Shown: positions 23,057 to 29,686 of the stretch, piece by piece
Layout of the letters: each line of letters begins with the position of its first letter
Numbering within the stretch: the first letter of the stretch is position 1
Assembly: GCA_016928575.1 (NCBI GenBank)
Contig: JAFGKK010000095.1
Coordinates: 1 to 58,826, forward strand
Length of the DNA: 58,826 nt
DNA from: Anaerolineales bacterium
Lineage (GTDB): Bacteria > Chloroflexota > Anaerolineae > Anaerolineales > RBG-16-64-43
Direction of reading: 5' to 3'
Translations under genes and position numbers: made by a program
Notes under the pieces: generated by a model
What the model was told of the DNA's origin: nothing
The model's database searches: none
The model's input: the letters and a program-made list of their open reading frames with translations, nothing else

Positions 23057-24028
23057 TTAGGGCAGGATCTGCGTCCCGGTCAGTTCGATCAACGCGCGCA
23101 GCATATTCCCGGTGTCGGTGATGATCGCCCGTTGGCCGCCGTGCTCCAGAAAATCGAGCGCCGCTTCGATCTTCGGTTGCATGCTTCCTTTGCCGAAATG
23201 CCCCTGGGCCATGTACGCCTTCGCCTCCTCGACGGTCATCCTATCCAGCCAGCGGACGTTCGGCCGGTTGTAATCCAGGGCCACCTTTTCCACGTCGGTC
23301 GAAATCAGGAGCAGGTCCGCGCTTGTTCCGCGGGCCAGCAGGGCGGAGGCGCGGTCCTTGTCGATCACCGCTTCGACCCCGACAAGTTCGCCCTTTTCGT
23401 TTTCCACGACCGGGATGCCGCCGCCGCCCACCCCGATCACGGTGAAGCCGGCTTTGACCAGCGTGAGGATGACATCCTGTTGCACTATCCGGATCGGCGC
23501 CGGCGAAGCCACCACCCGCCGCCAACCCCGGCCGCCGGAATCTTCGGAGATTACCCAGCCGTCGGCGTCGTGGCGCACCTTGGCGGCGCGCACGTCCATG
23601 AAGGATCCGATCGGCTTGGTCGGATTTTCGAAGGCGGGATCATGCTTGTCCACCAGCGTCTCGGTGACGACCGTGGCGGCATGGTTGGGCATTTCGCGCC
23701 GGCGAAACTCGTTGATCAGCGCCAGCTGAAACATGTAGCCAATCGAGCCCTGGGTGTTAGCGCCGCAGTGGTCGAGGGGAATGGTAAACAGCTCATGCTC
23801 GGTCAGCTCCGAGCGTCGCAGGATGATGCCGACCTGTGGCCCGTTGCCGTGAGTGACGATCACGTCCCAACCGGCCTGGATGATCGACGCGATCTGGGCC
23901 ATCGCCGCGCAGGCGGCCGCGTACTGGTCGGTCAGGGATTCTTTCCCCTTTTCCCTAATCAGCGCGTTGCCCCCGACGGCGATGACGGCCAGTTTGCGGT
24001 CCACGGTCTCCTTCCGCCAGAACACCAT
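23057..24028 (-). CDS. arcC: Carbamate kinase
   Basis: The protein has 323 residues (315 if the GTG at 24004 is the start). It is in the amino-acid kinase fold: VGGNALI at the N terminus, TNGNGPQVG-type loop (VTHGNGPQVGIILRR), and VIGVGGGGIPVV with VIDKDRASALLA. It makes ATP and carbamate from carbamoyl phosphate, normally as the last step of arginine or purine/allantoin fermentation. No arginine deiminase or ornithine transcarbamylase gene is nearby. AAGGAG lies only three bases from GTG 24004, so the start stays open. Divergent from polX. Confidence 0.92.
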   Translation of the reverse strand: MVFWRKETVDRKLAVIAVGGNALIREKGKESLTDQYAAACAAMAQIASIIQAGWDVIVTHGNGPQVGIILRRSELTEHELFTIPLDHCGANTQGSIGYMFQLALINEFRRREMPNHAATVVTETLVDKHDPAFENPTKPIGSFMDVRAAKVRHDADGWVISEDSGGRGWRRVVASPAPIRIVQQDVILTLVKAGFTVIGVGGGGIPVVENEKGELVGVEAVIDKDRASALLARGTSADLLLISTDVEKVALDYNRPNVRWLDRMTVEEAKAYMAQGHFGKGSMQPKIEAALDFLEHGGQRAIITDTGNMLRALIELTGTQILP

Positions 24029-24133
24029 CCATCCTATATCAATTCAGCCGGGAACGCCAACCAAGGATTCCGCGGAGGAGCAAGGTTTTCCCTCCCTGGT
24101 CCTCAATGCAATCCGCTGTGAAAAAAACCGTCC

Positions 24134-24146
24134 TATAATGCATGCC
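24134..24146 (+). promoter_or_regulatory. -10 promoter of polX (leaderless)
   Basis: TATAAT at 24134-24139 is followed after seven bases by ATG 24147. This spacing matches gyrA and the flavoprotein gene. An ATG at 24138 overlaps the -10 itself and cannot be the start if this promoter is used. Confidence 0.6.
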
Positions 24147-25868
24147 ATGAACAACCGCGAACTGGCCGAGACCTTCACCCTGATCGCCGACCTGCTGGAA
24201 ATCAAGGGCGAGATCGTCTACAAGACGCTCGCCTACCGCAAGGCGGCGGAAAGCCTTTCCGCGCTGGACCGCGACGCCGGGGATTACTGGAAGGAAGGCA
24301 AACTGCGAGAGATCCCCGGGGTGGGGGAGGCGATCGCCGGGAAGATCGAAGAGGTTCTCAAGACCGGAAAATTAAAATTCCTGACCCAATTGAAAAAGGA
24401 AATACCCCCCGGATTGGCTGAGTGGTTGAAAGTGCCGGGCCTGGGGCCCAAGAAGGCCGGCCTGATCTGGAAGACGTTGAAGATAAAAACGATTCCGCAA
24501 TTGGAGAAGGCAGCGCGGGCCGGAAAGCTGCGGGATCTGCCGGGGATGGGCGCCAAATCGGAGGCGGCAATCCTGGCTGGGATCGAAAGCCTTAAGCGCC
24601 GTTCGGGAAGGATCCCGCTCGGCCGTGCCTACCCGCTGGCGCAGAAAATCGCCGTCTCCCTGCGGGAGATTTCGGGCGTTGCGGCCGTGGAGCCGGCCGG
24701 CAGTCTGCGGCGGATGCGTTCGGACGTCGGCGACATCGACATCCTCGTCGCCTCCACGGATTCCGTGCCGGTGATGGAGGCTTTCACGCGCCTGCCGGGC
24801 GTGGCGCGGGTTCTGAGCAAGGGCGACACCAAATCCAGCGTCGAGTTCGGCGACGGCGTGCGGGCCCAGGTCTGGGTGCATCCGCCGGAGCGGTTCGGCA
24901 CGGCTCTGCAGTACGCCACCGGATCGAAGGACCACAACGTGTCCCTGCGTGAGTTGGCGCTGAAGCGGGGGCTTTCGCTTTCCGAACACGCGCTGACCCG
25001 GACCGGCGGCGGGGGCGAGATCCTCTGCGCGCAGGAGGAAGACGTTTACCGGGCGCTCGGCCTGCCGTGGATCCCGCCCGAACTGCGTGAGGACCGCGGC
25101 GAGGTGCAAGCCGCTCAGGGCGGCATACTTCCGCGGTTGGTTGAAACCGGCGACATCCTCGCCGACCTGCACGTCCACACCCGCTGGAGCGACGGCCGGC
25201 TGAGCGTGATGGAGGTGGCCCGGGCTGCGATGCGGCGGGGGCTGAAGGTCATCGCCATCACCGACCATACCGTCGGATTGGGGATTGCCAACGGCCTCGA
25301 CATGGCCGGGCATTCCGGACAGGCGGAGGAAATCCGCAGGGCGCAGGAAGCACTCGGAGGCGGGATCCGCATCCTGCACGGAGCCGAAGTGGAGATCAAG
25401 GCCGATGGAACTCTCGACTATCCGGACGAATTCCTGGCGGGTTTGGATTTGGTGATCGCCTCGCTGCACGTCGGCCTGCGCCAGAATCGCGCGAAGGTCA
25501 CCGAACGCATGCTCGGCGCCGTCCGCAATCCGCACGTCGACCTCATCGCCCATCCCACCGGACGGATGCTGCCGGACCGCGAGGGGGCCGATCTGGATCT
25601 GGAGGCGGTGTTCGCGGCGGCGGCCGAGGCAGGGACCGCGCTCGAGATCAACGCCCACCCGGTCCGCCTCGATTTGGACGACACCCACGCCCGCCGGGCG
25701 CGCGCGCTGGGCATTCCGTTGGCGGTCAACACCGATGCGCACTCCGAGGAGGATTTCGAAAATTTGTTTTTCGGCGTCGCCGTCGCCCGCCGCGCCGGAT
25801 TGACCAAGGCGGATGTGGTCAACGCCTGGCCGGCGGAAAAGCTGTTGGGTTGGTTGAAGCAGCGGTGA
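24147..25868 (+). CDS. polX: Family X DNA polymerase / 3'-5' exonuclease PolX
   Basis: The protein has 573 residues. The order is an N-terminal 8-kDa HhH domain (IPGVGEAIAGKI), a second HhH (VPGLGPKKAG), a family X nucleotidyltransferase core (AGSLRRMRSDVGDIDILVA with the metal aspartates), and a C-terminal PHP nuclease domain (DLHVHTRWSDG, TDHT, HPTGR, NTDAHS). Bacterial PolX fills gaps in base-excision repair and its PHP domain provides Mn-dependent 3'-5' exonuclease. All PHP metal ligands that can be seen are kept. The start is chosen from promoter position and family alignment (MNNRELAETF). Confidence 0.93.
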   Translation: MNNRELAETFTLIADLLEIKGEIVYKTLAYRKAAESLSALDRDAGDYWKEGKLREIPGVGEAIAGKIEEVLKTGKLKFLTQLKKEIPPGLAEWLKVPGLGPKKAGLIWKTLKIKTIPQLEKAARAGKLRDLPGMGAKSEAAILAGIESLKRRSGRIPLGRAYPLAQKIAVSLREISGVAAVEPAGSLRRMRSDVGDIDILVASTDSVPVMEAFTRLPGVARVLSKGDTKSSVEFGDGVRAQVWVHPPERFGTALQYATGSKDHNVSLRELALKRGLSLSEHALTRTGGGGEILCAQEEDVYRALGLPWIPPELREDRGEVQAAQGGILPRLVETGDILADLHVHTRWSDGRLSVMEVARAAMRRGLKVIAITDHTVGLGIANGLDMAGHSGQAEEIRRAQEALGGGIRILHGAEVEIKADGTLDYPDEFLAGLDLVIASLHVGLRQNRAKVTERMLGAVRNPHVDLIAHPTGRMLPDREGADLDLEAVFAAAAEAGTALEINAHPVRLDLDDTHARRARALGIPLAVNTDAHSEEDFENLFFGVAVARRAGLTKADVVNAWPAEKLLGWLKQR

Positions 25869-27869: not shown

Positions 27870-28610
27870 ATGCCCGTCCCACGCCGCGGTTTCATGAAGT
27901 TGTTCGGCGTCTCGCTGGGTTCGCTGCTCCTGACGCGCTGCCAGCGGACCGAAACGCCGGCGCCCACCGAGCTTCCGGTAATCTGCTACGAGCCGACCGG
28001 AATCCGTCCGCCGACGGATACGTCCCCCCCTCAAACCGCATCGCTGCGAACGCTTCTCCGCCTGTGCTGGCTGCGCTTCGGCGAATTGGCGCAGAAGACG
28101 AAGGAAAATTGGAAGGCCGAACCCGGCGAAAACTACGGGAGCCAGTTGGCCGGGAAAATGAACGAGGATCACCGACGCATCCTCGATGACCTGACGGCGG
28201 CCGGCGAAATCACGGCGCCGGTTTCCGACCTGATCCAGGAAGCGTACGAAGCCGCGGTATTCCACATCTGGCGCTTGAACACGATGATGACCTGCTACGA
28301 GATGGTGATGGTCGATTACGCGCCGGCCAGCGCCGCCAACCTTGTGAACCAATCCGGAGCCCTGACCGAGGCGGCCGCCGGAACCCCGATCGCACCGGCA
28401 ACGCTGGAGAAAATCCGCACGGCGCTCGAGCGCGACCTGGCGTTCTATGCGTTGACCGACGCGGAAGTGCAGGCCCTGTATGAAATGCTGCTCAAGGAGT
28501 ATCAGGATGCCGGCGAGACGATCCCCTCGTTCGAGGATCTGGACTTGGCGCTCACCCCGGACGTCAAAGCCGCGGCGCGGTTCCTGGTGGACGTGCTGAC
28601 CGGAAAATAA
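27870..28610 (+). CDS. Tat-exported lipoprotein-like protein, unknown function
   Basis: The protein has 246 residues. The N terminus MPVPRRGFMKLFG is a good twin-arginine motif (RRxFxK), followed by a hydrophobic stretch and a Cys in LLLTRC that could be lipidated. The mature part is largely helical and ends DVLTGK. I see no known enzyme motif. AGGAG lies upstream of ATG 27870. Its TAA shares a base with the ATG of the radical SAM gene that follows, which implies tight co-expression; it may be the substrate or partner of that enzyme. Confidence 0.75.
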   Translation: MPVPRRGFMKLFGVSLGSLLLTRCQRTETPAPTELPVICYEPTGIRPPTDTSPPQTASLRTLLRLCWLRFGELAQKTKENWKAEPGENYGSQLAGKMNEDHRRILDDLTAAGEITAPVSDLIQEAYEAAVFHIWRLNTMMTCYEMVMVDYAPASAANLVNQSGALTEAAAGTPIAPATLEKIRTALERDLAFYALTDAEVQALYEMLLKEYQDAGETIPSFEDLDLALTPDVKAAARFLVDVLTGK

Positions 28611-29686
28611 TGTCTTCCCGCCCGCGCATAGCCTCGTTGATATTTGAAGTCACGCAGCGCTGCAATCACGCCTGCCTGCATTGCTACAACGTGTGGGCCG
28701 GAGAGGACGAGTGCGCGCGGACCTACCCGCCGTACCCGCGCGGCGAGCTGGACACAAAGCGGACGCTGGACCTGCTGGGCAAAGCCCTCGACGAGACCGT
28801 CTGCTCCCATGTGACGCTGACCGGCGGCGAACCGCTGCTGCGCGAGGACCTGCCGGCCATCCTCGAATACCTTCGCGGCCGGAACGTGCGGACCACGGTG
28901 ATCAGCAACGGGCGGCTGTTGGACCAGCGGATGGCGGCGGATTGCCTCGACCGCGGAGCGGCTTTGTTCGAACTCCCGCTGCTCAGCCACAAGCGCGAGG
29001 TGCACGACCGGATGTCCGGCGCACCCGGCGCCTGGGAGGCCGTCCTGGATGCGATGGCCAACCTCCGCCTGCTCCGCGGCCGCTTCATCGCTGTCTTCGT
29101 CGCCACCAAGCTGAACCTTGACGACGTGCGCGGAACGATGAAATTGGCGTTCGCCTTCGGGGCCCAGGGGATGATGTTCAATCGCTTCAACCCGGGCGGC
29201 CGCGGGCGGGCCAATCTGGAAATGCTGCTTCCGTCGCGCGGCGGGATCCGCCGGGCGCTCGAAGAGGCGGCCGCCGCATCGGCCGAGTTCGACCTGCCGG
29301 TCTCCTGCTCGATCCCGATCCAGCCCTGCCTGATCGACATGAGCGCCTTCCCGCGGTTCGGCACCGGATTTTGCGCCGCCGGAACCGACCGGGCTTACTT
29401 CACGCTCGATCCGCTCGGGAACGTGCGGCCGTGCAACCACACCCCGACGATCCTCGGAAACCTGCGGGAGGAATCCTTCGCCGACCTGGCCGCCTCGGCG
29501 CGAATGCGGGCCTTCGCCGAAGCGATGCCGGCTTTTTGCGGACCTTGCAGCCGGCGGATGGAATGCCGGGGCGGGTGCAAAGCGGCGGCGGAAGTGTGCT
29601 ACGGATCGGCGGGCGAGGAAGAGCCCTTCCTGCGGATCAATAAGGAGCATGCTTCCCCTCTCACGCTTGCCGGCGAGAAACCATAG
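28610..29686 (+). CDS. Radical SAM/SPASM-type maturase
   Basis: The protein has 358 residues. The SAM-cluster motif is CNHACLHC (C18, C22, C25), followed by the TGGEPL loop that contacts SAM. The C-terminal third is SPASM-like, with Cys in GTGFCAAG, VRPCNHTP, FCGPCSRRMEC and GGC, enough for one or two auxiliary clusters. Such enzymes modify peptides or proteins or act in cofactor synthesis. It overlaps the Tat lipoprotein gene by one base (TAATG). No short RiPP precursor is seen within the next 300 bases, so the lipoprotein is the obvious partner to test. Confidence 0.85.
   Translation: MSSRPRIASLIFEVTQRCNHACLHCYNVWAGEDECARTYPPYPRGELDTKRTLDLLGKALDETVCSHVTLTGGEPLLREDLPAILEYLRGRNVRTTVISNGRLLDQRMAADCLDRGAALFELPLLSHKREVHDRMSGAPGAWEAVLDAMANLRLLRGRFIAVFVATKLNLDDVRGTMKLAFAFGAQGMMFNRFNPGGRGRANLEMLLPSRGGIRRALEEAAAASAEFDLPVSCSIPIQPCLIDMSAFPRFGTGFCAAGTDRAYFTLDPLGNVRPCNHTPTILGNLREESFADLAASARMRAFAEAMPAFCGPCSRRMECRGGCKAAAEVCYGSAGEEEPFLRINKEHASPLTLAGEKP

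Follow-up and report, generated by a model that had tools for sequence, protein, structure and literature searches.

A radical SAM/SPASM enzyme family paired with Cys-Tyr-bearing membrane proteins: a predicted two-gene maturation system in Chloroflexota and other phyla

The window, i.e., the whole stretch of 58,826 nucleotides from an Anaerolineales bacterium that was analysed here, contains two adjacent open reading frames that encode a protein with a Tat signal and a radical SAM/SPASM enzyme (Table 1). The two frames are joined by a TAATG overlap in which the A is the single common base, and this arrangement, which a sequence-only reading of the locus had already described, was borne out by the sequence. 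The same tight coupling of enzyme and partner genes was seen again in relatives from other phyla. A fixed stoichiometry of the two products had also been derived from the overlap, but an overlap is uninformative on stoichiometry and one enzyme is often accompanied by two or three tandem substrate proteins, so this claim was dropped. Elsewhere in the window (23853-25868, plus strand), a PolX-like protein with DNA polymerase beta thumb/palm, helix-hairpin-helix and PHP domains (Pfam) is encoded.

Table 1 Features of the gene pair in the window
Feature	Position	Strand	Basis
Tat-signal protein (246 aa), candidate substrate	27870..28610	+	ORF, translation
Radical SAM/SPASM enzyme (358 aa), predicted maturase of CY tags	28610..29686	+	Pfam, relatives, AlphaFold
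TAATG stop/start overlap	28608..28612	+	sequence; similar -4 or -1 overlaps in many relatives
Linker Cys-Tyr tag C39-Y40 (VICYEPTG)	27984..27989	+	linker CY in 13/24 Chloroflexota homologs
Domain Cys-Tyr site C142-Y143 (MMTCYEMV)	28293..28298	+	24/24 homologs
CY-hairpin module, residues 138-196: CY loop and two helices	28281..28457	+	segment common to several phyla

The N-terminus of the Tat protein (MPVPRRGFMKLFGVSLGSLLLTRC) consists of the Tat signal (residues 1-24) and then a linker with the first Cys-Tyr (CY) tag; C-terminal to the linker lies a helical domain carrying the conserved CY site. When 24 homologs were aligned, R5, R6, W67, H132, R135, C142, Y143, Q161 and D189 were invariant, and C142-Y143 was the most striking invariant feature of the family. 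The third marker residue of the Tat motif, F8, was kept in at least 90% of the homologs, and TatC is encoded in the genome with a score over the cut-off. With a twin-arginine signal and TatC in the same genome, the protein is a predicted Tat substrate, and the Tat signal recognized in the sequence-only reading could be retained. The label 'lipoprotein' could not. C24 is nearly invariant and signal peptidase II is present in the genome, but the residue before C24 is Arg in 17 of the 24 homologs, including the window protein, and the classical lipobox pattern (Ala/Gly/Ser before Cys) fits only 4 of them, so lipidation is uncertain. The AlphaFold model is a helical bundle (mean pLDDT 82), in which C142-Y143 sits in the loop that connects helix 116-137 to helix 150-169. 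The protein matched no Pfam family, its fold gave no significant PDB match in a structure comparison, and no credible match was returned when PDB sequences were searched with its profile. Its homologs are 29-55% identical and thus diverge faster than the enzyme (52-68% within Chloroflexota).

The enzyme carries the domains PF04055 (Radical_SAM, E=3.8e-20) and PF13186 (SPASM, E=1.8e-7), and its CxxxCxxC cluster motif is formed by C18, C22 and C25. Further downstream, C240, C255, C275, C310, C313, C319 and C323 are invariant among 55 family members and C330 is nearly so. Compared with the seven-cysteine pattern of SPASM domains (C-x9-15-G-x4-C ... C-x2-C-x5-C-x3-C ... C), the enzyme reads C255-x14-G270-x4-C275, followed by C310-x2-C313-x5-C319-x3-C323 and C330. 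From the domains and the cysteine pattern, the earlier assignment to the radical SAM superfamily with a SPASM domain is upheld, and the cysteine set is of the three-cluster SPASM type. The C-terminus is a conserved CYG, the Cys of which is a SPASM cluster cysteine and is not evidence for CY tagging. In the AlphaFold model (pLDDT 93.7), the top PDB folds were SkfB, PqqE, anSME, ChlB and SuiB, so that SPASM enzymes acting on peptides or proteins prevail among its nearest solved structures. Because the radical SAM core starts almost at residue 1, with the first cluster Cys at position 18, the enzyme has no fused leader-binding domain.

Several named identities were considered for the enzyme and rejected. 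The best NCBIfam scores were those of AhbD (TIGR04545) and NirJ2 (TIGR04055), at 97 and 102 bits against cut-offs of 500, which led us to reject a heme-pathway identity; a menaquinone enzyme was also rejected on NCBIfam family scores. A grouping with such non-protein-modifying families, which the sequence-only reading had named as the outcome that would count against it, was not seen. PqqE, MftC and GeoRSP reached 81, 77 and 87 bits against cut-offs of 381, 265 and 400. The enzyme seems to belong to no named family, as it falls far below all the named cut-offs listed. A virus-borne origin was also rejected, since a viral scan gave remote radical SAM proteins only (best 28% identity over most of the length). 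A plasmid search gave no match at E<=1e-40.

Conservation of the pair was counted in 298 genomes of the class Anaerolineae, with thresholds of E<1e-14 for the Tat protein and E<1e-40 for the enzyme. Both genes were present and adjacent in 11 genomes, the enzyme alone in one and the Tat protein alone in none (Fisher p=3.5e-19 for co-occurrence, kinship ignored). The expectation that the pair is conserved in other Anaerolineae was thus confirmed, and the 11 genomes are spread over eight families of the class. The distribution is patchy: the pair is absent from the nearest same-family relative searched (G289), and a draw of 350 genomes from the whole phylum contained it in the window's genome and G307 only. 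The lone enzyme-only genome (G276) has an enzyme of 45% identity, directly upstream of which two small membrane proteins with 5 and 2 CY repeats are encoded. The same design was found in G307 with proteins of 4 and 3 CY repeats, and in both genomes the partners are Pro/Thr-rich stalks anchored in the membrane, which bear 2-5 CY repeats and have a hairpin at the C-terminus. In another genome (G285:C133; locus L025, 5411-6097), a second, orphan CY Tat protein has no adjacent enzyme gene and the pair lies elsewhere in the genome, which suggests that substrates may be acted on in trans. At locus L055 (3415-6000), three tandem Tat CY proteins precede the enzyme, the last of which is apparently frameshifted right after CY.

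A scan of 84,980 genomes gave 65 relatives of the enzyme from about 14 named phyla, all of them in assemblies titled as metagenome-assembled genomes (MAGs). In a quick tree of the ingroup only, Chloroflexota formed one clade and the other phyla were placed on many deep branches. The scaffolds of the partners vary, including Tat proteins, transmembrane proteins, Pro/Thr-rich stalks and lipoprotein-like proteins, yet nearly all carry Cys-Tyr, either singly, repeated up to five times, or at the head of a helical hairpin of about 55 residues. Transmembrane proteins with one to four CY are the partners in Lentisphaerota and Planctomycetota, CY is located on short C-terminal tails in Verrucomicrobiota, and lipoprotein-like partners occur in WOR-3 lineages, three in a row at L101. 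The partners at L092 and L094 are Trp/Ser/Pro-repeat proteins with a terminal CY hairpin, and the Bacillota locus L079 encodes five CY (CYAPMK repeats) in a protein of 150 aa as well as a second copy of the enzyme gene. Two or three tandem substrate proteins per enzyme are common in the family (L046, L052, L055, L059 and L101; L043 and L120). In 36 of 57 partners, the first CY is preceded by a strongly hydrophobic segment, often at a distance of no more than about 20 residues; the remainder are mainly Tat proteins, the signals of which are less hydrophobic. No Pfam or NCBIfam model covers any of the ten other partners that were tested. About eight relatives (L073, L083, L095, L098, L104, L105, L106 and L108) have no convincing adjacent CY partner, and in several of them the enzyme match itself is broken or partial; L070 and L099 lie at contig ends. 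At L095 (4016-5284), in an Armatimonadota MAG without recognisable CY partner, a different radical SAM gene is located upstream of the family member.

The CY consensus over 100 motifs was [VIA]-[T/M/L/S]-C-Y-x-[P/M]. With genes called heuristically, CY was present in 49 of the 60 immediate upstream genes. Genes of matched length, drawn 2000 times from the same loci, had CY in 10.8 cases on average and in 23 at most. For some of the 11 misses, the cause is a wrong gene call, a broken gene, a contig end, or a partner that lies one gene further or downstream (L049, L054, L055, L064, L070, L081 and L084). Measured by residue, Cys precedes Tyr in 82 of 232 cases (35%) in the upstream genes and in 104 of 2269 (4.6%) in 535 other genes; the binomial value of about 1e-49 ignores kinship, and kinship inflates both this p-value and that of the pairing. 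Several partner groups without mutual BLAST similarity all carry CY; together with the deep branches of the enzyme tree, they are the basis for treating the CY evidence as independent. The comparison gives good support to a conserved pairing in which CY is the common feature of otherwise dissimilar partners.

An HMM built from Chloroflexota residues 138-196 alone also found partners in Planctomycetota, Lentisphaerota, Myxococcota, Acidobacteriota and Verrucomicrobiota, and its significant alignments started at CY; in this small set, the best E for a whole sequence was 7.6e-13. As a model made only from Chloroflexota aligns to the partners of other phyla at CY, CY and the two-helix hairpin form a portable module; further CY tags occur bare. 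At L079, L043 and L120, the hairpin and the CY repeats are apart from each other, which suggests that the hairpin may be a docking site and CY the target. For further CY substrates in the window genome, the DNA pattern of T-C-Y-x-P, which does not cover the window's own two CY sites, gave three matches, fewer than the reversed control and none of them partner-like.

Neighbouring genes were compared all-against-all within 4.5 kb and inspected by eye. The families that recurred were the CY partners together with frames overlapping the enzyme or partner genes; the remaining recurrent neighbours, as far as inspected, resemble shadow frames of the same genes. Neither a transporter nor a protease nor a second tailoring enzyme was found to be conserved within this distance, and the search for further partner genes proposed in the sequence-only reading yielded none besides the CY partners.

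These observations are best explained, in our estimate with a probability of about 0.74, by a maturation system of two genes: CY tags on membrane proteins would be modified oxidatively by the enzyme before the proteins are exported. In the cytoplasm, the SPASM enzyme would first bind the partner, with the helical hairpin beside the CY site as the probable recognition element, and then act on the CY motif. The modified protein would be exported afterwards, by Tat in Chloroflexota and presumably by Sec elsewhere, and its CY sites would come to lie either next to the membrane on its outer face or as part of an extracellular stalk or domain. Since both residues are invariant and adjacent, our first guess for the reaction, and the most likely one, is a thioether or other intramolecular crosslink of Cys and the adjacent Tyr. 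Cytoplasmic modification by a SPASM enzyme before export had been proposed in the sequence-only reading; the pairing and the invariant CY site fit this part, while the modification itself is a prediction. As for the Tat-exported lipoprotein system envisaged there, Tat stands for the Chloroflexota branch but is specific to it, and lipidation is doubtful.

Other roles of the enzyme and of CY have to be weighed against this maturation system. Formylglycine or another carbonyl could be made from the CY Cys, providing an aldehyde for attachment or catalysis, with Tyr used for recognition only. One of the closest solved folds is that of anSME, which likewise lacks a leader-binding domain; its two auxiliary clusters are fully ligated, and the eight conserved cysteines of the SPASM region would allow the same in the window enzyme. 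We nevertheless consider this reaction unlikely: the motif is C-Y-x-[P/M] instead of the sulfatase motif C-x-[P/A]-x-R, Tyr is invariant although formylglycine formation does not need it, and the tested partners contain no sulfatase domain. For the enzyme itself, membership of the anSME family was rejected, because the candidate substrate motif C-Y-x-P/M differs from C/S-x-P/A-x-R and the tested partners had no Pfam domain. Still less probable is a RiPP pathway, in which the partner would be a precursor and its CY core would be excised and released as a small bioactive peptide. The repeated cores with a separate hairpin at L079, L043 and L120 do resemble multi-core precursors. Of the parts of a RiPP cluster, which are a precursor, a modifying enzyme and usually a protease and/or transporter, the pair offers a candidate substrate and an enzyme. 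Speaking against the pathway, no protease, transporter or other tailoring gene recurs beside the pair, and most partners are large and membrane-anchored with CY inside a folded domain.

An enzyme acting on a small molecule such as a tetrapyrrole or quinone, with the CY protein as its carrier or chaperone, would agree with NirJ2 and AhbD being the top-scoring NCBIfam families, but these scores are far under the cut-offs and are nearly matched by PqqE, GeoRSP and MftC, and a carrier fold would hardly account for bare CY repeats in Pro/Thr-rich stalks; we hold this role to be very improbable. CY could instead be a binding or structural motif and not the modified site. If CY served to ligate a metal or the enzyme's own cluster, and the enzyme acted as a structural or regulatory protein, the two would be paired without modification; this would be consistent with the modification being a prediction so far, but the full radical SAM and SPASM cysteine set is kept, which is unexpected in a non-catalytic partner, and we give this form the lowest odds of all.

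Compared with PqqE, SkfB, SuiB, anSME and ChlB, the window enzyme has the same radical SAM core and SPASM domain, and PqqE (E=1.1e-27), SkfB and anSME were also its top profile matches. It differs from them in an identity of 13-20%, in the missing leader-binding domain before the core, and in that its candidate substrate is a membrane-targeted CY-tagged protein and not a short peptide or sulfatase. The model TIGR04133 ('rSAM_w_lipo'), whose name alone implies that a SPASM enzyme and an envelope protein are paired in a similar way, was matched by all 55 family members (best E=6e-25), but the score is in the generic SPASM range and the window Tat protein matches no NCBIfam family. AhbD, NirJ and NirJ2 share generic radical SAM/SPASM similarity (68-102 bits) far under their family cut-offs, unlike the window enzyme with its conserved partner as a candidate protein substrate. 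For most known SPASM enzymes, the substrate is a short peptide that is released by cleavage, or a single class of proteins. Short motifs repeated in a partner next to a SPASM enzyme were described for His-Xaa-Ser (Hxs) systems and Asp-Cys repeat peptides (cluster 59) (PMC9062424); in the CY system the motif is Cys-Tyr and the partners are membrane-anchored on many scaffolds, and HxsC matched the window enzyme weakly (51 bits against a cut-off of 268). The main-text section of that survey on SPASM enzymes and RiPPs describes no Cys-Tyr class (PMC9062424), and no description of such a CY system was found in the open-access papers searched. SPASM maturation is known, and what we rate as new is the substrate motif, Cys-Tyr, and the substrate class.

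One enzyme family appears dedicated to a dipeptide tag that several dissimilar membrane proteins carry, each with one to five copies; the phyla concerned, about 14, are represented here by metagenomes only. If the tag is modified, the pair would represent a new post-translational modification of the bacterial envelope and a compact two-gene test system with a predicted site, and the natural multi-site substrates would make mass-spectrometric detection easy. A pan-bacterial surface modification, with an undescribed Cys-Tyr crosslink or new residue as a portable and repeatable tag, possibly lined up in rows of redox-active or metal-binding sites on the outer side of the membrane, is a tentative extension that we find possible but doubtful.

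Two partner types have additional sequence features. The three tandem WOR-3 proteins at L101 (4221-5979) each contain one CY and a hydrophobic stretch; their conserved N-terminal segment, LFRFLSRxEDKGVxP, is similar to the hairpin found in other partners. At L092 (2855-3643) and L094 (4153-4941), long Ser-Pro-Trp repeats (SPWSSPWNSPW), unusual for their Trp-rich character, precede the C-terminal CY hairpin.
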